Under the pieces are notes generated by a model. It was not told the origin of the DNA, made no database searches, and saw only the letters and a program-made list of their open reading frames with translations. Below are positions 8,130 to 19,308 of a DNA stretch of 64,000 nt, piece by piece. This DNA is from Nakamurella aerolata. GTDB lineage: Bacteria > Actinomycetota > Actinomycetes > Mycobacteriales > Nakamurellaceae. Position numbers and translations under genes: made by a program. The stretch is from NCBI RefSeq assembly GCF_013002705.1, contig NZ_JABEND010000003.1:186001-250000 (forward strand). Direction: 5' to 3'. The first letter of the stretch is position 1. The number at the start of each line of letters is the position of its first letter.

Positions 8130-8512
8130 GCGTCCCTCCGCCTGCTGCCGGTCCGTGCCGCTCGTGCCAAGGGAGCCGGATTCACCTGCCGGACGCCGAT
8201 CGCCCCGGCCCGGTCTCTCCGGATCAGGCCGTGCCGGGCCCTGAGCCCGGTCTTGGGTCCAGTTCCGGTCCGATTTCGTTCCGGTCGCGATCCCGGCGGC
8301 GCCGGAATCACATCCGTGTAACTCCCGGGGTCATTGCACCATCGTTGCGACGTCGCGGTCCAGCCCGGCGCGGAGTGTCGCACCGCTGGATCGTCAGCGT
8401 GTCGCGCGGTTGTCGCAGGTCTCGTGACGTGTGGGATTGTTGTTACTGGAGTGCCTGTTGAGCCCACCCGGGCGCCTGGAATGTTTCTTGACACGTCAAC
8501 GTTAGGAGAGAC
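8130..8512. other. 383-bp divergent intergenic region
   Basis: This is the shared upstream region of the DUF3263 gene and the interrupted monooxygenase gene, with no credible ORF. Near the right end is a near-palindrome, TTGACACGTCAA (8488-8499, 10 of 12 symmetric), just before the AGGAG ribosome-binding site (8504-8508) of the monooxygenase. It could be an operator. The -35/-10 elements are not clear. Confidence 0.5.
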
Positions 8513-8764
8513 ATGAAGGCATTCGGATTTCTCTCGTTCGGTCACTATCAAGACGTGCCGGGTTCGGCGACTCGAACCGCGGCAGACATGATCAAGCAGT
8601 CCATCGAGATCGGCGTTGGGGCGGATGAGATCGGCGTCAACGGCGCCTACTTCCGGGTCCACCACTTCGCCCCGCAGCAGGCCTCGCCGATGCCGCTGCT
8701 GACCGCGATCGCGGCCAAGACCTCGCGGATCGAGGTGGGCACCGGCGTCATCGACCTGCGGTAG
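8513..8764 (+). pseudogene. LLM-class flavin monooxygenase, 5' fragment (split by integrative element)
   Basis: Eighty-three codons begin MKAFGFLSFGHYQD and run to KTSRIEVGTGVIDLR before a TAG contributed by the inserted element. This is the N-terminal beta-barrel part of a bacterial luciferase-like, F420- or FMN-dependent oxidoreductase. The missing remainder begins at 18259 (RYENPLQLAEEAAALD). Joining base 8760 to base 18261 gives an uninterrupted frame of about 367 codons, a normal length for the family. AGGAG at 8504-8508 is a good ribosome-binding site. The fragment alone should be inactive. Confidence 0.92.
8752..8760 (+). other. attL core (host/element junction, left)
   Basis: CGACCTGCG here matches CGACATGCG at 18252-18260 in 8 of 9 bases; TGCG is identical. 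The crossover lies in or next to TGCG because host coding sequence stops here and resumes after the right copy. Such short core identity is typical of serine integrase sites. Confidence 0.75.
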
Positions 8765-8770
8765 CTTATA

Positions 8771-8788
8771 TCGCGGTTGCAACACTCG
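8771..8788. repeat. left inverted repeat of the element (attP arm)
   Basis: TCGCGGTTGCAACACTCG is the exact reverse complement of bases 18237-18254. In the circular form the two arms would face each other across 16 bp that include the TGCG core, giving a dyad of 52 bp. That is the size of a serine integrase attP. Confidence 0.9.
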
Positions 8789-8807
8789 TTCACGTAAGCT
8801 TGGTTGC

Positions 8808-10244
8808 ATGGTTGAACTGGTATCGCTGAGGAAGACGAACGAGGTCGCCGCGTACGTCCGCGCCTCGATGGATCGCAAGGGCGACCGGTGGACGGTCGAG
8901 ACCCAGTTGCGGAAGATCAGGGCTCTCGCCGAGGCCAAGGACTGGGAGGTCGTCGAGGTCTACGACGACAACGCTGTGTCGGCGACGAAGAAGCGCCGCG
9001 CTGGCACCCGGTGGGCCGAGATGCTGGACGACGCCCGCGCGGGCAGGTTCTCGATGGTCGTCGCCGTGGACATGGACCGCCTCCTGCGCAGCACGAAGGA
9101 CCTGAACACGCTGATCGACCTCGGCCTGCGCGTCGTCACCGTGGACGGCGAGATCGACCTCTCGACGGCGGACGGCGAGTTCCGGGCGACGATGCTCGCC
9201 GCTCTCGCGCGGTTCGAGGCGCGCCGCAAGGCGGAGCGTCAGATCAGGTCGAACGAGCGCCGCCGCGCCGAGGGCATCCCGGCGTCCTCCTGGAAGGCGT
9301 TCGGCTGGACGAGGGAGGGTGAGCTGATCGAGGCGGAGGCCGACGCCGTACGGCGGGCCTTCGATGCGTTCCTCGGCGAGCCGTCGCTGTCGATCCGTCG
9401 CATCCGCGAGGACCTGAACAGCGCCGGTCATCTGACCGCGCGCGGGTCGGCGTTCTCCGTCGATGCCGTGCGGTACCTGCTGGCGAACCCGCTCTACGCT
9501 GGCTACATCAAGCACTACGCCTCGGGCGAGCTGTACCCGGTGCAGGGCGACGCGTTCCCGCCCATCGTTGGCGAGCAGACGTGGCGGGCCGCGGTGGCAA
9601 AGCTGGAGGACAACGTGCGGAGGTCGGCGAGGCAGGGCAACCAGCCGAAGTACCTCCTGTCCACGATTGGCCTGTGCGGGAAGTGCGGCGCGACGCTCGT
9701 CTCGGGGACCAACAGCCGCAAGCAGCCGACGTACCGCTGCGGCGAGCAGTTCCACCTCACCCGCCAGCGCGAGCCCGTCGATGCGATGGTCACCGAGGCG
9801 GTGCTCACCCGCCTGTCGTCGGTGGACGTGCACGACCTCGTGATGCCGCAGGAGGACGACGGGCCGGACCGCGAGGCGCTGCTGACCGAGCGGAACGCTC
9901 TGGTCGAGCGCGTCAAGGAGCTGAGCCCGCTGCTGCTGGACGTGCGCCAGCCCGTCCTGGAGATCACGGAGGCGATCAGGGGCGGAAAGGCCCGCATCGA
10001 CCAGATCGACGCGGAGATACTCGACCGCTCGGTGTCGGTGGCGGCGAAGCTGCTGGGGGACGTGGACGAGTCGCTCGGCACCATGGAGCGCCGGGAGGTC
10101 GTCGAGTCGAAGTGGAAGGCCTTGGACATGGACCGCCGCCGGATGCTCGTGGACGAGCTGGTAACGGTGACCATCGAACCCATCGCGCCGGGTCACGTGA
10201 AGTTCGACCCCGACCTCATTCGAATAGAGCCGCGTCGCGACTGA
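8808..10244 (+). CDS. large serine recombinase (site-specific integrase)
   Basis: This 478-residue protein starts 20 bp inside the left repeat. Residues 12-150 form a resolvase domain: YVRASMDRKGD carries the catalytic Ser20, and VAVDMDRLLRS and FEARRKAERQ carry the conserved Asp and Arg residues. A recombinase domain follows (SIRRIREDLNSAGHLT, LLANPLYAGYIKHY), then a zinc-ribbon with CGKCG near residue 289 and YRCGE, and a coiled-coil C-terminal part. Such enzymes integrate circular DNA at a roughly 50-bp attP and a shorter attB. The gene is adjacent to attL as expected. Excision would normally need a directionality factor, for which the small downstream ORFs are candidates. Confidence 0.95.
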   Translation: MVELVSLRKTNEVAAYVRASMDRKGDRWTVETQLRKIRALAEAKDWEVVEVYDDNAVSATKKRRAGTRWAEMLDDARAGRFSMVVAVDMDRLLRSTKDLNTLIDLGLRVVTVDGEIDLSTADGEFRATMLAALARFEARRKAERQIRSNERRRAEGIPASSWKAFGWTREGELIEAEADAVRRAFDAFLGEPSLSIRRIREDLNSAGHLTARGSAFSVDAVRYLLANPLYAGYIKHYASGELYPVQGDAFPPIVGEQTWRAAVAKLEDNVRRSARQGNQPKYLLSTIGLCGKCGATLVSGTNSRKQPTYRCGEQFHLTRQREPVDAMVTEAVLTRLSSVDVHDLVMPQEDDGPDREALLTERNALVERVKELSPLLLDVRQPVLEITEAIRGGKARIDQIDAEILDRSVSVAAKLLGDVDESLGTMERREVVESKWKALDMDRRRMLVDELVTVTIEPIAPGHVKFDPDLIRIEPRRD

Positions 10245-10425
10245 CACGCGAGTCGACTCGTCAGTGGACTGGTGAGTCGAGTCATGGGAGAATGGTTGCA
10301 GACAAGAAGATCCCACCGGGGCCGCGACTTAGAAGCGCGGGTTCTACTCCCGGATGAGTAGCCGGTCAAACAGCCCAACTACCGTGGCGGGGAACCGGAA
10401 GCACACTCATGTTTGAGGACTTCCG
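10245..10425. other. structured non-coding segment between integrase and small ORFs
   Basis: GACTC/GAGTC complementary pieces around 10253-10280 could form a weak terminator for the integrase. Around 10338-10352 CGGG-TTCTACT-CCCG resembles a tRNA T-arm, but no acceptor or anticodon arms fit. The stretch might hold the promoter of the next genes or the transfer origin; neither could be shown. Confidence 0.3.
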
Positions 10426-10638
10426 ATGTCTGTCGTTATCGACGCTCCCCGCGCCTCCGCGCTGGACCGTCCTGGGCTCGACCAGGACCTGATCCCCGCT
10501 TCGCAAGCTGATGGGCTCGATCCCGTCATCGCCGTTGCCCTCGCCGCCGGTCGTCGTGCCGGTGAGCGCCTGACCAGCACGCCGCTGACCCCGCGCCAGC
10601 GCGCCGCCGTCGCCGCCGTGATGGGTGGTGGTCGCTGA
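10426..10638 (+). CDS. small uncharacterised protein of the element (70 aa)
   Basis: The ATG at 10426 opens a 70-residue frame whose stop overlaps the next ATG (TGATG). The sequence ends in PLTPRQRAAVAAVMGGGR, and the middle contains an Ala-rich helix (DPVIAVALAAGRRAGERL). No known domain was recognised. Its place between integrase and Rep, and its coupling to an HTH protein, suggest a role in element control, possibly as a directionality or copy-control factor. This is inference only. Confidence 0.55.
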   Translation: MSVVIDAPRASALDRPGLDQDLIPASQADGLDPVIAVALAAGRRAGERLTSTPLTPRQRAAVAAVMGGGR

Positions 10639-10886
10639 TGAGCGCCAACTCCGCTGCCTTCGACCACGTGAACGGCTTCCGCTGGCGTCTGGGCGATCCC
10701 ACTCTCGCCGACGCGGAAGCGCATCTCTACGACCTCGGCGTGCTCCGCTCCGTGCTGGAAGAAGCCGTCGAGATCGCCGTCGCCGACGCCCGCGCCGATG
10801 GGGTGACCTGGGCGAGGATCGGCGATGCCCTCGGCGTCACGCATCAGGCCGTCATCAAGCGCTACCGCAAGGGCGGTGCCCGATGA
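10638..10886 (+). CDS. small helix-turn-helix protein of the element (82 aa)
   Basis: Eighty-two residues overlap the preceding stop by one base. The C-terminal part, VTWARIGDALGVTHQAVIKR, has the spacing of a helix-turn-helix of the sigma-like or AsnC-like kind used by small regulators. The N-terminal part (VLRSVLEEAVEIAVADARAD) is a plausible dimerisation helix. A role as a repressor or excision factor is possible. It is translationally coupled on both sides (TGATG before, ATGA after). Confidence 0.7.
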   Translation: MSANSAAFDHVNGFRWRLGDPTLADAEAHLYDLGVLRSVLEEAVEIAVADARADGVTWARIGDALGVTHQAVIKRYRKGGAR

Positions 10887-11230
10887 GCACCACCGACTGC
10901 ACCAGCGCCCTCGTGTCCGCCGACCTGACCCCGCCCGGAGGGCCTGCCCTGGCACCCGCCGGAGGCGGGCTGCCCGTCGTCGTGATGACCGCCGGAAGCC
11001 GTGTTCCGCACTCCAAGAGTTTCGGGAGCTTCATTCGTTCCTACGGGCGCGGCAAGGGCTTGTCGATTGCCGCGCCATGCACCAACATGCCTGGTCAGGA
11101 GCCGGTTCCGCCCTCGCACCGCCGCGTGACCTCGCGGGATCATTTGGGGTCTCATTTGGGGGTCAATAGGGGGTCATTTAAGGCGCCGCACGCTCCTTAC
11201 GATGTCGCGGGCGGTGGTCGCCGTGGCTAA
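10883..11230 (+). CDS. possible 115-aa ORF overlapping the putative replication origin
   Basis: An ATG at 10883 overlaps the previous stop (ATGA) and gives 115 codons running into the rep gene. The composition is Pro/Gly/Ser-rich with no domain. From about 11046 the same bases hold a perfect hairpin and the iterons, so the second half looks constrained by DNA structure rather than protein. It may be a short real peptide, or just an open frame through the origin. Confidence 0.3.
   Translation: MSTTDCTSALVSADLTPPGGPALAPAGGGLPVVVMTAGSRVPHSKSFGSFIRSYGRGKGLSIAAPCTNMPGQEPVPPSHRRVTSRDHLGSHLGVNRGSFKAPHAPYDVAGGGRRG
11046..11076. other. perfect hairpin, candidate nick locus of a rolling-circle origin
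   Basis: GGCGCGGCAA (11046-11055) pairs with TTGCCGCGCC (11067-11076) across the 11-nt loop GGGCTTGTCGA. It lies 63 bp upstream of the iterons. In pMV158-like replicons Rep nicks in a hairpin loop some 80 bp from the repeats it binds. The loop does not match the pMV158 nick sequence, so the nick site is inferred from layout only. Confidence 0.5.
11140..11184. repeat. four 11-12 bp iterons, candidate Rep-binding locus
   Basis: Units begin at 11140 (TCATTTGGGG), 11152 (TCATTTGGGGG), 11163 (TCAATAGGGGG) and 11174 (TCATTTAAGGC), spaced 12, 11 and 11 bp. They end 18 bp before the rep ATG. Direct repeats of 11 bp are the binding locus of pMV158 RepB, the family to which the Rep endonuclease domain here belongs. 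They may also let Rep regulate its own promoter. Confidence 0.65.
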
Positions 11231-12638
11231 GCAGGAGAACAACCCCACGAGCATCGGACTCACGCAGTACCTCGATCCGTCGTACTGGACCTGGGCTGCC
11301 GAGGATGCGAACGGGGCCGCGCTGCTCCAGCAGGGGGCCGGGCCGATCCTCACCTACATCGTGCAGCGGCTCGAGGCGGTCGGCTGCGAAGTCGTCGAGG
11401 CCTACGGCATCGTGCACGACAAGGACGAGCGCGAGGTCTGGAGCGACACGGAGAAGGCACTCGTGGTCGAGCCGAAGCCGGATCACCTGCACGCGGTGAT
11501 CAAGTTCGCCAGTCGTTCGAAGAGCGCGCCGCTGGATCGGCTCGCGTTCGGCATCGGCGTCGAGCCGCAGTACGTCGAGAAGCCCGGTCGCGGACGCTAC
11601 GCCTTCGACAACATGCTGTCGTACCTGACGCACGTGAAGTACGCGGACAAGCACCAGTACGCCCCTTCGGAGGTCGCCACGGTGCGCGGGCCGGACTACC
11701 TCGGCATCGACGCCCTGCGCCGGGAGACGTGGCTCAAGGGCCGCGCCCACGTGAAGAAGAAGGTCGTCGCCGAGAACTTCGAGGACATGCGCGAGCGGGT
11801 GCTCCAGGGCGAGATCACGCGCGATCAGATCATGCTCACCGATGGCCTGTTCGACATCTACTCGCGGCATCAGCGGGAGATCGACGACGCACTGTCGGCC
11901 TATGGTCAGCGCCGCGCGTATCGGGCGGCAGCGAAGCTCCGCGCCGGTGATTTCTCAACGCATGTGGTGTTCGTCCACGGGGATGCCGGGATCGGCAAGA
12001 CGCGGTTCGCAACGGACTTCATCATGGCGGCGATTGACGCGGCGAACGCGAACGGCGAGCGGTGGCAGGTCTACCGGGCCGCGACGGGCAACCCGCTCGA
12101 TGACTGGCGCGGGGAGGAGGTTCTGCTGCTCGACGATCTGCGGGCTTCGGCGATGGATGCGAACGACTGGCTGTTGCTGCTCGATCCGTACAACGCCTCC
12201 CCGGCGAAGGCGCGTTACAAGAACAAGGGCGAGGTGGCTCCGCGACTGATCGTCATCACGGCCACCATCGAGCCGGTCGAGTTCTTCTTCTACGCCCGCC
12301 AGAAGGGCAACGTGGACGAGGCGCTGGACCAGTTCATCCGTCGCCTGGCATCGGTCGTGAAGGTGTTCCGCGCCGACGATATCAACCGCTACCTCGTGCA
12401 GCACATCGGGAAGATCGAGCCCTACGAGTGGCATCAGTGCAGCCTTCCGGCGGCCGCGCACACGCCGGGCGTCAACGGCAACTCGTACCACCAGCAGGTG
12501 GCTCCGTCGCGCGAGCTCACCTACGGTCCGGAGACCTCCGCGGAGCACGACGCCGAGAGCGCGGTTGTCGAACTGCTGAGCGGGCTCGCGGTGCGCAGCC
12601 CGGACGTGCCGCTGGCGCTGATCGGAGGTGCGGCATGA
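11202..12638 (+). CDS. rep: rolling-circle replication initiator: HUH endonuclease fused to SF3-type helicase
   Basis: The protein has 478 residues from the ATG at 11202; a GTG at 11223 is an alternative start. Residues 65-160 hold the endonuclease: GIVHDKDE, the metal-binding PDHLHAVIKF (His95 and His97) and YLTHVKYADKHQY, with a likely nucleophile Tyr141. This is the pMV158 RepB/Rep_2 pattern. Residues 250-400 hold an ATPase: Walker A GDAGIGKT (260-267), Walker B EEVLLLDDL (305-313), and VITATIEP as a sensor. HUH plus SF3 is the architecture of CRESS-DNA viruses and related bacterial and phytoplasma plasmids. It should nick and unwind the origin at 11046-11184. Its stop overlaps mobC. Confidence 0.88.
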   Translation: MSRAVVAVAKQENNPTSIGLTQYLDPSYWTWAAEDANGAALLQQGAGPILTYIVQRLEAVGCEVVEAYGIVHDKDEREVWSDTEKALVVEPKPDHLHAVIKFASRSKSAPLDRLAFGIGVEPQYVEKPGRGRYAFDNMLSYLTHVKYADKHQYAPSEVATVRGPDYLGIDALRRETWLKGRAHVKKKVVAENFEDMRERVLQGEITRDQIMLTDGLFDIYSRHQREIDDALSAYGQRRAYRAAAKLRAGDFSTHVVFVHGDAGIGKTRFATDFIMAAIDAANANGERWQVYRAATGNPLDDWRGEEVLLLDDLRASAMDANDWLLLLDPYNASPAKARYKNKGEVAPRLIVITATIEPVEFFFYARQKGNVDEALDQFIRRLASVVKVFRADDINRYLVQHIGKIEPYEWHQCSLPAAAHTPGVNGNSYHQQVAPSRELTYGPETSAEHDAESAVVELLSGLAVRSPDVPLALIGGAA

Positions 12639-13225
12639 GCGCCGATCAGCACCCGCTCTTCCAGGGGATCGAAGGGGGCGGAGCCCCCTCGCAAGCAGGG
12701 CTGGAGGACACGAGCGTCAGCGATGTGTCCGACAGGCCTACTGCTTGCCACTCTGGCGTACAGGTGGAGCAGCAGGCCGACTCCCAGGTGAAAACCGGTC
12801 GGGCTGATGCGGAGGCTGTGCGCCAGAGTCACGGCGGCGCGAAGCGTCGTCGTGGGGGCGGCGGGCGGCTTGATACGCGCTTCGATGAGGCCACGCTCGG
12901 GGCGCTGCGCACTCGTGCGGAGCGGCTCGGGCTGGCTCCGAGCACCTGGGTGCGGAGCGTCGTGCGCGATGCTCTGCACGCCTCCCGGAGCGAGGAGCTG
13001 GACGCCGCCGTGGCCGCGCACCTGCTCGGCGTCGAGGCGCGCGTGCAGGCCTCGGCGGACGCCCGGGAGCTTGCCGCGCAGGTGCGCCCGCTGGCGATCA
13101 ACGTCAACGACCTGGACCGCCGCGCGCGGGCCGGCGAGGCGGTCGCGCTGTCGGCGGAGGTGCCCGAGCTGATCGAGCTGCTGCGCGAGGTCCGGACCCT
13201 GCTCGGGGATCGGACGGCCTCATGA
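12635..13225 (+). CDS. mobC: MobC-like relaxosome accessory protein
   Basis: This 196-residue protein is coupled to rep and to the relaxase by ATGA overlaps at both ends. The first 65 residues are low-complexity. RLDTRFDEATLGALRTRAER followed by LGLAPSTWVRSVVRDAL is a ribbon-helix-helix-type DNA-binding segment. QVRPLAINVNDLDRRARAGEAV resembles the IGNNLNQIAR motif of MobC proteins. Such proteins bind near oriT and help the relaxase melt and nick DNA. Position directly before a relaxase supports the call. Confidence 0.8.
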   Translation: MSADQHPLFQGIEGGGAPSQAGLEDTSVSDVSDRPTACHSGVQVEQQADSQVKTGRADAEAVRQSHGGAKRRRGGGGRLDTRFDEATLGALRTRAERLGLAPSTWVRSVVRDALHASRSEELDAAVAAHLLGVEARVQASADARELAAQVRPLAINVNDLDRRARAGEAVALSAEVPELIELLREVRTLLGDRTAS

Positions 13226-14508
13226 GCACCACGCACTACAGCCCGAGCACCAGCGTCGGAGACACGGAGCGCTACATCCGTGGCAAGGAGGACGAGCGCG
13301 GGGTCGCGATCACGTGCGACGTGCCGGGAGGCCCCGGCGCATTCTCGGCCCGCGCCCGCGCGCTCACGCAGAACACGAAGCGCGACGTCGAGGCACTGCA
13401 CTACCGGCAGTCGTTCAGCGACGAGGAGTTCGACTCGAGCAGCCCGGAGGACGTGCAGCGGGTGAACGATCTGGGCTACCAGCTCGCGAAGAAGATGCAC
13501 CCGGACTCGGACTGCCTCGTGGTCAGCCACGTGGATGGTCGGGGCAAGAAGCCGCACAACCACATCCTCGTGATCAATCACAGCAACCGGACCGGAAAGG
13601 CCCTCTCGGATTACCGCACGTTCCACGACCGCAAAGCCGGGAACCAGCGGGGCGTGCAGTCGGCGAACGACGAGTTGATGCGCGATCACGGCCTCTCGGT
13701 CGTGAAGCGGCTGGAGCACGCCCCGAAGGACTGGGAGCTGCGCCGCGAGGACTTCGCCGAGGGCGGTCTCGACCGCGAGATGGGCGACCGGATGAGCGCC
13801 GCCCTGGCCGATCCCCGGTCGGTGGACAAGGCCGGTCTTGAGGCGGTGATCGCGGAGCAGAACCAGCAGCTCGGCGGCGACGGGGAGCGGGTGCCGCGGA
13901 TGCGCCTGCACAGCCCAGTCAGCAAGAAGGGCAAGCGCGCCGGTCAGGAGACCTGGACGCTCTACATCGAGGACCGCCGCGGCGAGTCCGGGCGCGCTGA
14001 GCGCCGCAAGCGCACGAGTGCGCTCTCGGCGGATTTCACACCGGAGGGCGCAGCCGCGTTCTTCGACTACCACCAGCAGCAGAAGGAGCAGGAACATGAG
14101 CGCAGCGCTCGACAGGCTGAAGCAGCAGAACGCGCACGAGCAGCCGCCGCAGCAGCTCGGCAGTCCGGCGACGATGGAGGTGTTGACCTCGATCCTCACC
14201 GCCGTCGAGGCGCAGAACGCGAGGCTCGACCGGCTGGCCGAGCAGCAGAAGAAGCTCGCGGGGTTCGTGAAGGTCATGGACGAGGAGACGACGAGGCGGC
14301 TGGAGAGGATCGCGGCCCCGGCGTCGACCTCCTCGCCCTCCAGCGACGTGTCCGCGAGGATCGCGAGTATCGAGAGCAGGCAGAACGAGATCGCGAGCAC
14401 GCTCGGCGAGTTCGCGCGGAGTCTCAACGGCGAGAGCTTGAACGCCGCGTCGCGGAGCTTGGTCGCGGAGGCGCAGAAGAATCACGCGGCTACGGCCTCG
14501 GCGATTGA
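13222..14508 (+). CDS. MOBP-type relaxase
   Basis: This 428-residue protein has VEALHYRQSFSDEEF, then LAKKMHPDSDCLVVSHVDG and KKPHNHILVINH. His103, His112 and His114 form the metal-binding HUH triad. The nucleophilic tyrosine is probably Tyr6 or Tyr18. The C-terminal 150 residues are charged and coiled-coil-like (REDREYREQAERDREHARR). Relaxases nick oriT and pilot the strand into a recipient. The last 413 bp overlap the next gene in another frame, as mobA/mobB genes do in ColE1-type plasmids. Confidence 0.88.
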   Translation: MSTTHYSPSTSVGDTERYIRGKEDERGVAITCDVPGGPGAFSARARALTQNTKRDVEALHYRQSFSDEEFDSSSPEDVQRVNDLGYQLAKKMHPDSDCLVVSHVDGRGKKPHNHILVINHSNRTGKALSDYRTFHDRKAGNQRGVQSANDELMRDHGLSVVKRLEHAPKDWELRREDFAEGGLDREMGDRMSAALADPRSVDKAGLEAVIAEQNQQLGGDGERVPRMRLHSPVSKKGKRAGQETWTLYIEDRRGESGRAERRKRTSALSADFTPEGAAAFFDYHQQQKEQEHERSARQAEAAERARAAAAAARQSGDDGGVDLDPHRRRGAEREARPAGRAAEEARGVREGHGRGDDEAAGEDRGPGVDLLALQRRVREDREYREQAERDREHARRVRAESQRRELERRVAELGRGGAEESRGYGLGD

Positions 14509-14998
14509 GGGGCTCAAGGCGCAGGCCGCAGCGAACCAGAAGCTCGTGAGCCAGGTCGGCGGAGCCGTGCAGCGGATCGAGAAGCGCACCGAGGAGCGGG
14601 TCGAGAAGGCCGTCGAGCAGGTCACCGGGGAGGCCTCGGCGACGATGACGGCAAACCTCGACGCGTCGAACGAGCGGGCCGAGCGGATCATCGCCGCCAC
14701 GGCGAAGCTGGAGACCCGTCAGCTCTGGTCGGCTGCCGCCGCGATGTGCCTCGCACTCCTGCCGGTGGTCGTGGTCATCGCTGGGCTCTGGATGGGCATC
14801 GCCGGGCTCATCACGGGCGCTCAGTGGGCGCTGGACGTAAACGGGAGCGTGTGGCTCGGAATCGGGCGCTGGCTCGTGGTCGGTGTGGGCCTCGCCGGGG
14901 CCAGCTACGGGCTCTTCGCGTCCGTCCGCTGGGTCGCTGGCCTCGTGGAGACCTGGAAGGACCGCGGGCTGCCGAAGTGGCCGCGCTGGCGAAAGTAG
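14096..14998 (+). CDS. membrane-anchored coiled-coil protein nested over the relaxase 3' end (MobB-like)
   Basis: The ATG at 14096 follows a good AAGGAG ribosome-binding site inside the relaxase gene and gives 300 residues. Residues 30-205 are heptad-rich coiled coil (VEAQNARLDRLAEQQKKLAG, ERVEKAVEQVTGEAS). Two membrane segments follow, about residues 212-240 (LLPVVVVIAGLWMGIAGLI) and 262-285. The tail is basic. The layout recalls MobB proteins that tether the relaxosome to the membrane or coupling protein. Sequence homology to MobB was not established. Confidence 0.78.
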   Translation: MSAALDRLKQQNAHEQPPQQLGSPATMEVLTSILTAVEAQNARLDRLAEQQKKLAGFVKVMDEETTRRLERIAAPASTSSPSSDVSARIASIESRQNEIASTLGEFARSLNGESLNAASRSLVAEAQKNHAATASAIEGLKAQAAANQKLVSQVGGAVQRIEKRTEERVEKAVEQVTGEASATMTANLDASNERAERIIAATAKLETRQLWSAAAAMCLALLPVVVVIAGLWMGIAGLITGAQWALDVNGSVWLGIGRWLVVGVGLAGASYGLFASVRWVAGLVETWKDRGLPKWPRWRK

Positions 14999-15002
14999 GC
15001 GA

Positions 15003-15049
15003 CCAGGGTTCCCGAGGGCAAGCGCGCGGAGCGCGTGCGGCAGCCCTGG
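15003..15049 (+). terminator. hairpin after the mobilization genes
   Basis: CCAGGG (15003-15008) pairs with CCCTGG (15044-15049), enclosing a GCGCGC/GCGCGT inner stem. It separates the mobilization unit from the cmtR promoter. Confidence 0.5.
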
Positions 15050-15053
15050 CGAG

Positions 15054-15099
15054 TCGACAATAAGTCAGCCAACACTGTATAGTTCAGTGCATGCTGACT
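15054..15099 (+). promoter_or_regulatory. cmtR promoter and operator dyad, probably leaderless
   Basis: TCGACA (15054-15059) and TATAGT (15078-15083) form a sigma-70-like promoter with an 18-bp spacer. Transcription would begin at or within a base or two of the cmtR ATG at 15091. Two nested inverted repeats share the dyad centre 15081: AGTCAGC/GCTGACT (15063-15069, 15093-15099) and CACTG/CAGTG (15073-15077, 15085-15089). The dyad covers the -10 element and start codon, so bound CmtR would block polymerase until metal releases it. Confidence 0.7.
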
Positions 15100-15450
15100 G
15101 TTGCTTCTCGTCTCGACGTCATGAACCGGCTCGGCCGGGCCATGGCGGACCCGACGCGCTCCCGGATTCTGATGACCCTGCTCGACGGCCCGAGCTACCC
15201 GGCCGTGCTCTCGCGCGAGCTGGAGCTGACTCGCTCGAACGTCTCCAACCACCTGACCTGTCTGCGCGACTGCGGCATCGTCGTCGCCGAGCCGGAGGGG
15301 CGGCAGACGCGCTACGAGATCGCCGACCCGCATCTGGCGGCGGCGCTCACCGCACTGGTGGACGTGACGCTCGCTGTCGACGAGCACGCGCCCTGCGTGG
15401 ACTCTTCGTGCACAGTGCCGGGTTGCTGCGGGACGGGGGCGGGCGAGTGA
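15091..15450 (+). CDS. cmtR: CmtR, cadmium/lead-sensing ArsR-family repressor
   Basis: This 119-residue winged-helix protein closely follows mycobacterial CmtR: LGRAMADPTRSRILMTLLDG, then LTRSNVSNHLTCLRDCGIVV and EGRQTRYEIADPHLA. The three metal ligands of CmtR fall at the same positions here, Cys57, Cys61 and Cys102. It should release DNA on binding Cd(II) or Pb(II). Four more cysteines near the C-terminus (107, 112, 113 and nearby) are extra. It heads a four-gene operon in which every junction is an overlap. Confidence 0.93.
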   Translation: MLTVASRLDVMNRLGRAMADPTRSRILMTLLDGPSYPAVLSRELELTRSNVSNHLTCLRDCGIVVAEPEGRQTRYEIADPHLAAALTALVDVTLAVDEHAPCVDSSCTVPGCCGTGAGE

Positions 15451-17360
15451 GCGCGGCGTGCGGCTGCGAGCACGACGAGCCTGAGACCACTTCGGGAGAG
15501 GAAGCCGAGGAGGCGGCGCGTCCCTGGTGGCGGGACCGCGGGATCATGGTCCCGGTCTTCTCCGGCGTCGCGTTCCTGACCGGCCTGGTGCTGGAGTGGG
15601 CGGGGCTGGAGGTCCCGGCGCTGGTGCTGTTCTGGATCGGTCTGCTGTTGGGCGCGTCGACCTTCACCCCGGGCGCGATCCGGAAGCTGTTCAAGGGCAA
15701 GCTCGGCATCGGCCTGCTGATGACGATCAGCGCGGTCGGCGCGGTGATCCTCGGGTATGTCGAGGAGGCCGCCGCCCTGGCGTTCCTGTACTCGATCGCT
15801 GAGGCGCTGGAGGACAAGGCCATGGACCGTGCCCGCGGCGGGCTGCGGGCGCTGCTCAAGCTCGTCCCGGAGACCGCGACCATCCGCCGCGACGGAGCAT
15901 CGGTCGAGGTCCCGGCGAAGGACCTGGCTGTCGGTCAGCTGATGCTGGTGCGGCCGGGTGAGCGGATCGCGACCGACGGCATCGTCCGCACGGGACGCTC
16001 CAGCCTGGATACGTCCGCGATCACTGGCGAGTCGATCCCGGTCGAAGTCGAACCCGGCGACACCGTCTCCGCGGGCGCGATCAACACCGCTGGGGCGCTC
16101 GAGGTCGAGACGACCGCGGCGGGCACCGACAACTCGCTGACCACGATCGTCGACCTGGTGGAGAAGGCGCAGGCAGAGAAGGGCGACCGCGCCCGCCTCG
16201 CCGACCGCATCGCCCGGCCCCTCGTCCCGGGCGTGCTGATCCTCGCCGCCCTCGTCGCGATCATCGGGTCGCTGCTCGGCGACCCGGAGCTGTGGATCAC
16301 CCGCGCCCTCGTCGTGCTCGTGGCGGCATCTCCCTGCGCGCTGGCGATCTCGGTGCCGCTGACCGTGGTGGCCGCGATCGGGTCGGCGAGCAAGTTCGGC
16401 GTGATCATCAAGTCCGGGGCCGTGTTCGAACGGTTCGGCGTGATCCGCCACGTCGCCGTCGACAAGACCGGCACCCTGACCCGCAACGAGCCCGCCGTCA
16501 CCGCCGTCCTCACCGCCGAGGGCGTGACCGAGAAGCAGGCGCTGGCCTGGGCCGCCGCGCTCGAGCAGCACAGCACCCACCCCCTTGCGGCCGCGATCAC
16601 CGCCGCGGCCCCCGGGGCCCCCGCGGCTGACGGTGTGACCGAGCAGGCCGGGCACGGCATCGAGGGAACCCTCGACGGTGCGCGGATCACGGTCGGCAGC
16701 CCGCGCTGGCTCGACGCCGGGACGCTCGGCGAGCAGGTTGCTGGGCTGGAGGAGCAGGGCATGACGGTCGTGATCGTGCACCGCGACGGCACGCCGGTCG
16801 CCGCGATTGGCGTCCGCGACGAGCTGCGTCCCGAGGTCCCCGAGGTCGTCCGCACCCTCGCCGCACAGGGCATCGGGGTCACCATGCTCACCGGCGACAA
16901 TGCTCGCACCGCCCGCGCCCTCGCCGCCCAAGCCGGGATCGGCGACGTGCGTGCCGAGCTGCGCCCGGAGGACAAGGCCGCCGCGATCGCAGAACTCGGC
17001 GAGAAGGGGGCTGTGGCGATGATCGGCGACGGCATCAACGACGCTCCCGCCCTCGCCGCTGCCGACATCGGCATCGCGATGGGCGCGACCGGCTCGGATG
17101 CCGCGATTGAGTCCGCCGACGTCGCGTTCACCGGCCACGACCTGCGCCTGCTGCCGCGTGCGTTCGACCACGCCCGCCGCGGACGGCACATCATCAACCA
17201 GAACATCATCCTTTCGCTGCTGATCATCACCGCCCTGCTCCCGCTCGCCCTCTTCGGCGTCCTGGGGCTCGCGGCCGTGGTGCTCGTGCACGAGATCGCC
17301 GAGGTCGTCGTGATCCTCAACGGCCTGCGGGCTGCCCGGACCCCGAAGAGCGCCGCGTGA
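15447..17360 (+). CDS. P1B-4 type heavy-metal transporting ATPase (CtpG/CadA-like)
   Basis: The GTG at 15447 overlaps the cmtR stop and gives 637 residues. There is no N-terminal HMA domain, only a Cys-His-rich start (CGCEHDEPE). TGES actuator loop, SPC in the transport helix (AASPCALAISVP), DKTGTLTRNE near residue 338, HP locus (STHPLA), GDGINDAPALAAADIGIAMG and HEIAEVVVILNG follow. SPC with HEIAE is the P1B-4 pattern seen in mycobacterial CtpG, which is also paired with CmtR. It should export Cd, Co or related divalent ions. Confidence 0.92.
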   Translation: MSAACGCEHDEPETTSGEEAEEAARPWWRDRGIMVPVFSGVAFLTGLVLEWAGLEVPALVLFWIGLLLGASTFTPGAIRKLFKGKLGIGLLMTISAVGAVILGYVEEAAALAFLYSIAEALEDKAMDRARGGLRALLKLVPETATIRRDGASVEVPAKDLAVGQLMLVRPGERIATDGIVRTGRSSLDTSAITGESIPVEVEPGDTVSAGAINTAGALEVETTAAGTDNSLTTIVDLVEKAQAEKGDRARLADRIARPLVPGVLILAALVAIIGSLLGDPELWITRALVVLVAASPCALAISVPLTVVAAIGSASKFGVIIKSGAVFERFGVIRHVAVDKTGTLTRNEPAVTAVLTAEGVTEKQALAWAAALEQHSTHPLAAAITAAAPGAPAADGVTEQAGHGIEGTLDGARITVGSPRWLDAGTLGEQVAGLEEQGMTVVIVHRDGTPVAAIGVRDELRPEVPEVVRTLAAQGIGVTMLTGDNARTARALAAQAGIGDVRAELRPEDKAAAIAELGEKGAVAMIGDGINDAPALAAADIGIAMGATGSDAAIESADVAFTGHDLRLLPRAFDHARRGRHIINQNIILSLLIITALLPLALFGVLGLAAVVLVHEIAEVVVILNGLRAARTPKSAA

Positions 17361-17911
17361 CTGCGCAGGACGCCGTTGTCGTCGAGTCGACGGGCGGGGC
17401 ATCCACGAGGAGCAGGCAGGCGCTCGTCGTCGCCCTCGTCGTCGCGGCGCTCGCTCTGGCGATCGATCAAGGCTCGAAGGTCCTCGCCGCGGCGCAGCTG
17501 ACCCAGGGCGAGCGGATCCCGCTGGTCGGCGACCTGTTCGGGCTGTCGCTGGTCTACAACCCCGGAGCCGCGTTCTCGATCGGTTCCGGGGCCACCTGGA
17601 TCTTCGCGATCAGCGGCCTCCTCGCCGCCGTGGCGGTGGTCGTGTTTGCCGCACGGATGCGCGGGGCGCGGTGGGGCGTCGCGCTGGGGCTGGTCCTCGG
17701 CGGCGCGGTCGGCAACCTCGTCGACCGGCTCGTGAACTCGCCCGCGTTCGGGCAGGGGCACGTCACGGACTTCCTCGCCTACGGCGACCTGTTCGTCGGG
17801 AACGTCGCCGACGTCTTCGTCGTCGCCGGTGTCGGCCTGGTATGTCTGAACCTCCTCACGCAGACCCCTCGCACGACAGCTGAGGGTGAACGAACGGAAG
17901 AAGCTTCATGA
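17357..17911 (+). CDS. lspA: signal peptidase II (lipoprotein signal peptidase), element-borne
   Basis: This 184-residue protein has four membrane helices. The catalytic aspartates are Asp123 in GNLVDRL and Asp152 in GNVADVF, with the usual VYNPGAAFS block between. It cleaves prolipoprotein signal peptides. The GTG start overlaps the ATPase stop, so it is made with the metal pump. LspA copies recur in cadmium cassettes of Gram-positive bacteria, but no lipoprotein substrate is encoded in this element. A second, chromosomal lspA is expected elsewhere. Confidence 0.93.
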   Translation: MTAQDAVVVESTGGASTRSRQALVVALVVAALALAIDQGSKVLAAAQLTQGERIPLVGDLFGLSLVYNPGAAFSIGSGATWIFAISGLLAAVAVVVFAARMRGARWGVALGLVLGGAVGNLVDRLVNSPAFGQGHVTDFLAYGDLFVGNVADVFVVAGVGLVCLNLLTQTPRTTAEGERTEEAS

Positions 17912-18234
17912 AGGTGGAACTGCTGCACATCGCCGACTGCCCGAACACGGGAATCGCCGAAGCCAACGCACGGGCAGCGCTGGACGCTCTCGGACTCGGG
18001 GCCGTGCCTGTCGAGCTGGTGACGATCGGGACCGAGGCCGAAGCGGCGAACACTGGGTTCGGAGGCTCGCCTACGATTCTCGTCGACGGCATCGACCTGT
18101 TCCCGACAACACTCGTTCACTCACTGGCGTGCCGTGTCTATGTGGCTGAGAACGGGTTCGCCGGCGCACCGGCGGCAACACAGATCGATGAGGCGTTGCG
18201 CGACCGCATGCAAGGCGGCGAGAGCGACCGATAA
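17908..18234 (+). CDS. thioredoxin-fold protein of cadmium cassettes (often annotated alkylmercury lyase-like)
   Basis: This 108-residue protein overlaps the lspA stop (ATGA). It begins MKVELLHIADCPNTGIAEAN and has GFGGSPTILVDGIDLFP, the cis-Pro region of a thioredoxin/glutaredoxin fold. Only one cysteine sits at the would-be active site (Cys11 in ADCPN), and a second is at LACRVY. It is too short and lacks the catalytic layout for true MerB. A role in metal binding or thiol chemistry is likely, judged by its operon. Confidence 0.75.
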   Translation: MKVELLHIADCPNTGIAEANARAALDALGLGAVPVELVTIGTEAEAANTGFGGSPTILVDGIDLFPTTLVHSLACRVYVAENGFAGAPAATQIDEALRDRMQGGESDR

Positions 18235-18236
18235 GG

Positions 18237-18254
18237 CGAGTGTTGCAACCGCGA
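18237..18254. repeat. right inverted repeat of the element (attP arm)
   Basis: CGAGTGTTGCAACCGCGA is the exact reverse complement of bases 8771-8788. It ends one base before the ATG that reopens the interrupted host gene. Confidence 0.9.
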
Positions 18255-18260
18255 CATGCG
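18252..18260 (+). other. attR core (element/host junction, right)
   Basis: CGACATGCG pairs with the attL copy CGACCTGCG at 8752-8760. Host coding resumes at CGC (18259-18261), which restores Arg-Tyr-Glu-Asn-Pro of the monooxygenase. Confidence 0.75.
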
Positions 18261-19116
18261 CTACGAGAACCCGCTGCAGCTGGCCGAGGAGGCCGCCGCA
18301 CTGGACATCATCGCCGACGGCAGGGTGGCGCTGGGCGTCAGCCGTGGATCACCCGAACCGGCACTGCGCGGCTACGAGGCCTTCGGTTACACCGGGTCGA
18401 AGGACCCGCGCGGCGCCGATCTGGCCCGCGACAAGTTCGACCTGTTCATGCGGGCGGTGGACGGCGACGACGTTGCCGACGCCGACCCGAACCAGTACGG
18501 ACCGGGCGTCCGGCTGCCGATCGAGCCGCATTCGGCGGGACTGCGCGAGCACATCTGGTGGGGATCGGCGACCAGGGATTCGGCCAAGTGGACCGGCGAG
18601 ATGGGCGTCAACCTGATGTCGTCCACGCTGCTCACCGAGGACGCCGGCGTGCCGTTCCACCAGCTGCAGGCGCAGCAGATCGAGACCTTCCGCAAGGCCT
18701 GGAAGGACGCCGGGCATCCGGGCGATCCGCGCGCGTCGGTCAGCCGCAGCATCTTCCCGATCATGGACGCCACCGACGCGGCCTACTTCGGCATCCGCCG
18801 CGGCGGGATGGACGCCCACGACACCGTCGGCATCATCGACGGCTACCGCTCGACGTTCGGCAAAACCTATGCGGCGGAACCGGATCAGCTGATCGAGCAG
18901 CTCAAGGCCGACGACGCGGTGATGAGCGCCGACACCGTCATGCTCACCATCCCGAACCAGCTCGGCCCCGAGTACAACCTGCACATCCTCGAGTCGTTCG
19001 CCAAGCACGTCGCGCCGGCGCTGGGCTGGCAGCCGAACACCGACGGTCCCGTCACCGGCTACCCGATCGACCAGGCCATCGCGGCCGGAGCAGACACCGT
19101 CAGCACCGTAGGCTGA
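18256..19116 (+). pseudogene. LLM-class flavin monooxygenase, 3' fragment (split by integrative element)
   Basis: From ATG 18256, which straddles the junction, 286 codons continue the 5' fragment at 8513: RYENPLQLAEEAAALDIIAD, then VSRGSPEP and HIWWGSATRDSAKW, typical of luciferase-like oxidoreductases. The reconstructed enzyme is about 367 residues. The element supplies a potential start codon but no good ribosome-binding site, so expression of this fragment is doubtful. The flavin barrel lacks its first strands and would probably be inactive. Confidence 0.9.
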
Positions 19117-19142
19117 CGCCGCTCGCGATTCATCACCTGGTG

Positions 19143-19191
19143 CAACAGTGGGCGATGTCCGGGTCACCATCCCGGATATCGCCCACTGTTG
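19143..19191. terminator. strong hairpin terminator
   Basis: CAACAGTGGGCGAT pairs with ATCGCCCACTGTTG, with CCGGG/CCCGG inside and the 7-nt loop TCACCAT. It follows the monooxygenase 3' fragment and faces the convergent P-loop kinase gene. Confidence 0.85.
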
Positions 19192-19308
19192 TTGTCTCTG
19201 ATGAATGTTGCGGTGAAGGTGCCGATGGACGCGGCGCATCCCTGCCGCCGCGTCGTGGCGTCGGCCGCACGGCCAACTCAGCTCACCGTTTCAGCCGAGC
19301 TCACCGCC

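Follow-up and report, generated by a model that had tools for sequence, protein, structure and literature searches.

The window is a 64,000-nt stretch of the Nakamurella aerolata genome in which a luciferase-like monooxygenase gene is split by a 9,500-bp element carrying metal-resistance genes; all genes and half-sites given below lie on the + strand. The 5' part of the interrupted gene (8513..8763, Pfam PF00296) includes the dinucleotide TA at 8762-8763, the core and crossover point at attL, and the 3' part (18262..19116, PF00296) begins with the second copy of this core, the TA at attR (18262-18263). The TA at attL was placed by its fixed distance to the integrase start in relatives and by the direct repeat in the window, which was counted as exactly 2 bp. 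The 25-bp P' half of attP (8764..8788) contains an 18-bp arm (8771-8788) and is followed by the gene for a large serine recombinase (integrase) of 478 aa (8808..10244; PF00239, PF07508). A small helix-turn-helix protein of 82 aa (10638..10886) matched PF13384 with an E value of 1.1e-4, under the Pfam cut-off, and is, from its position only, a candidate excision factor. A replication protein with a Rep origin-binding domain and a helicase (11202..12638; PF01719, PF00910) is followed by an open frame directly before the relaxase gene (12635..13225) that had no Pfam or NCBIfam match and possibly encodes a mobilization accessory protein, a guess from its position. The relaxase is of the MobA/VirD2 type (13222..14508; PF03432, E 1.5e-12) and its gene is overlapped by another open frame whose start is uncertain (14018..14998; no Pfam match for 14078-14995). 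Further along are the genes for CmtR, a Cd(II)/Pb(II) sensor (15091..15450; NF047906, 181 bits against a cut-off of 150), a P-type ATPase of the cadmium family with an uncertain start (15528..17360; TIGR01512, 491 bits against 313.5), the lipoprotein signal peptidase LspA (17357..17911; TIGR00077, 82.8 bits against 73.95) and a DF-family protein of 108 aa (17908..18234; NF049942, 57 bits, under the cut-off of 70). The 25-bp P half of attP (18237..18261), which contains the second 18-bp arm (18237-18254), borders the TA at attR.

Judged by its gene content, with Rep and relaxase genes, the element looks like an integrative mobilizable element. It encodes its own integrase (PF00239) and its own relaxase (PF03432), and no conjugation-system match was found among the larger element ORFs, 10 of which were compared with Pfam and 9 with NCBIfam. 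Two of the element ORFs had no match at all in the Pfam and NCBIfam scans made, and Rfam returned nothing at the gathering score in 8400-19200. The cargo from CmtR on (15091-18234) was 83-89% identical to plasmid stretches of Cryobacterium, Microbacterium and Paenarthrobacter, suggesting that the cargo moves between element types.

The PF00239 match of the integrase (E 1.6e-23) corresponds to an N-terminal resolvase-type catalytic domain with the serine present. This residue, S20 in the motif AYVRAS, was invariant in 14 of 14 aligned sequences and is presumably the nucleophile of the window integrase. The PF07508 recombinase domain (residues 176-269, E 1e-11) comes after the catalytic domain. 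C290, C293, C311 and H316 were also invariant (14/14), and Zn-ribbon models gave no match at E 0.001. An AlphaFold2 model of the protein had a pLDDT of 45, too poor to judge a zinc ribbon or coiled coil. Over the catalytic domain, the relatives of solved structure found with phmmer include the TP901-1 integrase, and the protein is also weakly like the IS607 serine transposase, below threshold.

The arm sequence CGAGTGTTGCAACCGCGA at 18237-18254 (+) has its perfect reverse complement at 8771-8788, exactly where the earlier note had described 18-bp perfect inverted arms. Even with 3 mismatches allowed, CGAGTGTTGCAACCGCGA matched nowhere in the window but at these two arms; 100 shuffles gave a mean of 0.14 arm matches, with two matches in 1 of the 100. 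Joining the element ends as a circle reproduced the predicted 52-bp attP with 16 bp separating the arms. The joined site is composed of 25 + TA + 25 with TA as the exact dyad centre; 22 of the 25 positions are identical between P and reverse-complemented P'. The site has the features of a serine integrase att system, an attP of about 50 bp with a dyad and a 2-bp core common to attP and attB, and its proposed identity as a serine integrase attP is supported. The span first assigned to the site, 8752-8788, does hold the arm but extends about 10 bp into host sequence; the element side starts directly after the TA at 8762-8763. The TGCG that the earlier note had pointed out in the 16-bp spacer lies away from the middle and is not where the crossover takes place, the dyad centre being TA.

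A single integrase scan of 84,980 genomes gave 51 related loci from many actinobacterial genera, with integrases 82-100% identical to that of the window in the best segment. Further genome searches found the integrase in no genome but that of the window, among 17 of the genus (absent from the 16 others at E 1e-60) and among 396 of the phylum, so the orientation count given below has no held-out set. The DNA of the relatives matched the window element to a varying extent, many of them covering most of the first 6.2 kb. Several loci, among them L007, L009, L031 and L036, lacked any match longer than 150 bp in the region of the Rep gene (window positions of about 10.9-12.6 kb). In L015, L016 and L021 the unmatched gap also took in most of the relaxase gene. 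This pattern suggests that the integrase end is common to all and that the rest is modular. Cargo varied, with an apparent mercuric reductase in one group and an MFS transporter in others (translations read by eye). The nearest copy, L002 from Gordonia spumicola, had 15 differences in 9,498 positions compared to the window element, and this near-identity points to recent transfer of the element, probably between genera, as the family of the window host comprised one genus with 17 genomes, presumably other than Gordonia. In the search for a free plasmid or phage form, plasmids gave no match at E 1e-40, 10 pattern-matching stretches in viral contigs included none encoding a relative, and the 95 matches in phage records at E 1e-30 were all below 60% identity (33-34% for 15 listed of the 95). 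Neither a circular form of the element nor a joined attP was detected.

The crossover was mapped by comparing the element ends of these loci. Junction patterns required TA and, for right ends, target likeness; left ends were taken at the fixed distance and reading frames were used as a check. Right ends were located with target-like patterns and in 12 loci also with a P-half pattern, so that the number of ends lying in other genes may be too low. TA was at its fixed place in 46 of the 51 loci, the distance from the element start to the start codon of the integrase being 43-44 bp; one of the 46 (L011) has no host flank. No left end could be located in the other five: L045 and L050 begin at or beside a contig end, and L046, L051 and L052 (Schaalia odontolytica, Actinomyces oris) have only a C-terminal integrase match, with the right end in the target. 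Both ends lay in the target gene in 36 loci, window included, and joining of the flanks restored the reading frame in 36/36 as (G/A)V(I/V)D(M/L/K)R-Y(E/A/S)(N/S)P. For 20 of the 36, attL and attR shared TA and nothing more. The shared stretch was longer in the remaining 16, growing leftward in 6 forward loci and rightward in 10 reverse loci, with the forward locus L005 also sharing 1 bp on the right. As the growth was leftward in forward and rightward in reverse insertions, TA is the sole part common to all 36.

The target codons of the relatives were GVIDMR-YENP in the luciferase-like monooxygenase gene, and the joined flanks of the window read GVIDLRYENP. The right part of the gene was matched at E 1e-60 in 9 of the 16 other genomes of the genus, all nine of which had an uninterrupted site reading VIDMRYENP with TA at the matching place. 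The attB of the window host has CTG (Leu) where these nine sites have ATG. Taken in the window host alone this difference would fit a crossover further left; the comparison with relatives settles the crossover at TA.

Element orientation was then counted at the same codons. Among the 36 loci with both ends in the target, 13 were forward, 23 reverse and none mixed (two-sided binomial p = 0.13 for 23 versus 13), leaving a mild bias toward reverse as a possibility. At least one end lay at the target codons in 48 of the 51 related loci; counted on this basis, 20 of all 52 loci were forward (window included) and 29 reverse. Three loci were not placed for orientation: L011, which has no flank, and L044 and L049, which are at other sites. 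Taking L044 as reverse would give a 20:30 split (p = 0.20); it was not counted because its joined flanks, LLYVVPMI, are unlike the target, and it was taken as a secondary site. Judging from this distribution the orientation of the element is not set, as relatives face both ways at the same codons.

Orientation was also compared with integrase ancestry. Identical 1,434-nt integrase genes were found in L005 (forward) and in L006, L008, L010 and L037 (reverse), and again in L035 (forward) and L036 (reverse). The integrase tree comprised 43 genes, 41 of them labelled (26 reverse, 15 forward), with L011 and L012 present without a label. L043-L046 and L048-L052 were excluded for having no full open integrase in register, L033 was labelled reverse by hand since both of its ends are in the target, and L034, L035 and L036 were added by hand. 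The tree needed 12 orientation changes, compared to a mean of 11.8 with shuffled labels, and 342 of 500 shuffles of the reverse label were as low; the starred branches alone force 11 changes. Identical integrases facing both ways, and changes as frequent as with shuffled labels, suggest that orientation keeps no memory of ancestry.

Several loci had unusual ends. In L012 (Kocuria carniphila) the right end (~18499) was in the monooxygenase gene in forward orientation and the left end (~9955) was in an unrelated gene that by eye resembles a repeat protein, with TA kept; this is possibly a rearrangement, perhaps by the same integrase. In L017 (Rothia kristinae, ~18502) the left end was in the target and the right flank, rearranged or deleted, departed from the target soon after TACGAG. 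L044 (Thermocrispum municipale, ends 9955 and 16065) occupied another site, in a gene that looked membrane-protein-like by eye, again at TA. L049, from a Gordonia MAG (~6595), was likewise at another site, in a membrane-protein-like gene (by eye) and at TA, with its right end not found. L041 (Brevibacterium sp. S22) had a P-like half-site with TA at ~17053, a flank unlike the target and more window-like DNA beyond. It may mark a right end at a different site or be a remnant inside the element; the element may continue past ~17053, and this possible right end outside the target was left out of the count.

The arms were compared across the 35 relatives in which both ends were read (L002 excluded, L012 included). 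Agreement was 5-13 of 18 positions for the arms and 11-19 of 25 for the whole half-site, as against 18/18 and 22/25 in both the window and L002. L003 has the same P' half as the window, its right end lying outside the locus. As the 35 relatives are placed alike, perfect arms are not required for placement. The earlier note had asked the right question when it took the perfect arms to raise the problem of how orientation is set, but their perfection is not what decides it.

We consider it very probable, from the comparison of these loci, that this integrative mobilizable element integrates either way round at one target because its overlap TA is palindromic. The integrase would recombine the 52-bp attP with an attB in the monooxygenase gene at the codons GVID(M/L)R-YENP, and the 2-bp overlap exchanged would be TA, its own reverse complement. 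A serine integrase aligns attP and attB either way, with only the pairing of the 2-bp overhangs after subunit rotation discriminating between the two alignments. TA overhangs would pair in both, leading to integration in either direction. According to the excerpted text of PMC3783163, attP and attB synapse equally in parallel and antiparallel and only the parallel synapse gives efficient strand exchange. The reason is the polarity of the 2-bp core. For A118, the excerpts of PMC3556126 give 35.5% and 47.5% inversion products, alongside deletions, with symmetric engineered cores. A palindromic core should make the attP x attB reaction orientation-blind as for these engineered sites; by analogy the natural TA core should act like the symmetric A118 cores, and the distribution of the relatives agrees. 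The sequences themselves show the sites, the TA boundary, the common target and the two orientations of the relatives; in the proposed mechanism the window integrase itself would perform either-way integration, both orientations would arise at integration and not from later flipping, and excision would keep its order owing to the different half-site layouts of attL and attR.

A crossover at TGCG (or at GAC) would instead provide a non-palindromic core that fixes orientation, and it accounts for TGCG being common to attL and attR of the window and for the ATG of all nine uninterrupted same-genus sites being the same as at the window attR. However, TGCG is missing at the attL of reverse insertions, which typically read GGGTTCTC[A/G]-TA, and it lies off the dyad centre. 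The bases before TA at attL are ATGCGT in L002 and CTGCGG in the window, and this difference between near-identical elements (15/9,498) indicates that the bases there are host-derived. Leu at the target codon also occurs in other hosts (L006, L009, L010, L015, L027, L038). A TGCG or GAC core was excluded by the reverse insertions and L002, and we hold it to be highly improbable. It is also improbable, if less so, that integration is oriented and that the integrase later flips the element in place by recombining attL with attR, TA to TA. The products of such a flip would have the same sequence as those of reverse integration, and a palindromic core would permit it. In the structural model, as given in the excerpts of PMC3783163, antiparallel attL x attR however brings P to P' and B to B', with the parallel alignment taken as productive. 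In-place flipping also leaves unexplained why attP x attB with a TA core should be oriented.

The window arms are perfect inverted repeats across which host homologous recombination might flip the element, though the 7 bp separating each arm from TA would not move in such a flip. At the integrase end these inner 7 bp were identical or 1 base different between forward and reverse copies (7 lineages; L002, forward, versus L003, reverse), and the 35 relatives have only the partial arm matches described above. Arm-mediated flipping is contradicted, as the inner 7 bp travel with the element, and we find it scarcely credible. The 18-bp inverted ends with TA on both sides also resemble a DDE transposon with TIRs and a TA duplication that happens to carry a recombinase gene, and IS630/mariner-like transposons do duplicate TA. 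Among the 10 element ORFs compared with Pfam and 9 with NCBIfam, however, the sub-threshold IS607 likeness was the only transposase match, and in 48 of the 51 relatives an end falls on a single codon position in a single gene family rather than on scattered TA sites. A DDE transposon was dismissed, with no DDE match among the scanned ORFs, and has next to no probability. Either-way integration at a palindromic TA is the reading that we prefer. A broader version, in which the family has preserved a palindromic core in many genera of actinobacteria and its elements, besides integrating either way, may also invert where they sit, seems unlikely; if it were true, the promoter of the interrupted gene would read into either element end by turns.

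The site resembles that of the Listeria phage A118, for which excerpts of the published work describe a minimal attP of 50 bp that is imperfectly palindromic with a 2-bp core at the crossover, a 25-bp half-site in the structure (PMC3556126, PMC3783163) and recombination both ways with engineered symmetric cores (PMC3556126). In contrast to the native TA found here, with both orientations in nature, the native A118 core GG is asymmetric and fixes orientation; the window element has no such core (TA; 13 forward and 23 reverse of 36). Bxb1 and phiC31 integrases are likewise large serine recombinases. Their native cores, GT and TT, are asymmetric, and the orientation of Bxb1 is said to be set solely by the central dinucleotide. 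Firmicutes integrative mobilizable elements with serine recombinases (Tn4451 and others) similarly combine a single serine recombinase with mobilization genes and direct repeats that are very short; several of these elements interrupt a gene that is dispensable, and Tn4451 exchanges at 2-bp identical sequences (PMC5704250, in excerpt). Unlike these, the window family belongs to actinobacteria, carries a Rep gene and uses another target, and Tn4451 has low target specificity in the same excerpts (PMC5704250). The words orientation and dinucleotide are absent from that review (PMC5704250). Streptococcus ICEs with serine integrases also insert within genes with 2-8 bp repeats (PMC4701971, in excerpt), and S. 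suis elements are described in a luciferase-like monooxygenase gene as well (excerpts of PMC7168690 and PMC9652813). Both orientations occur in the window family, unlike in the Streptococcus ICEs as presented in the excerpts of PMC4701971. Neither a native palindromic core with both orientations nor the window element is the subject of any open-licence paper that the searches listed, judging by titles and the openings of abstracts. PMC10083194 surveys thousands of serine integrases; the word palindromic is absent from its text, and its data may contain the window family.

Serine integrases are described as orientation-specific owing to an asymmetric 2-bp core, and their usual insertion is one-directional. 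The symmetric cores in the literature examined are laboratory mutants and the window family appears to be a natural case. Such a family would amount to a replicated natural experiment on whether orientation is set by the dinucleotide alone, as the rule has it. A further question is why the core stays TA if, as we infer, one base change in both sites would restore polarity. The target may be the reason, as TA is the start of a conserved Tyr codon (TAY) and attP must match the gene.
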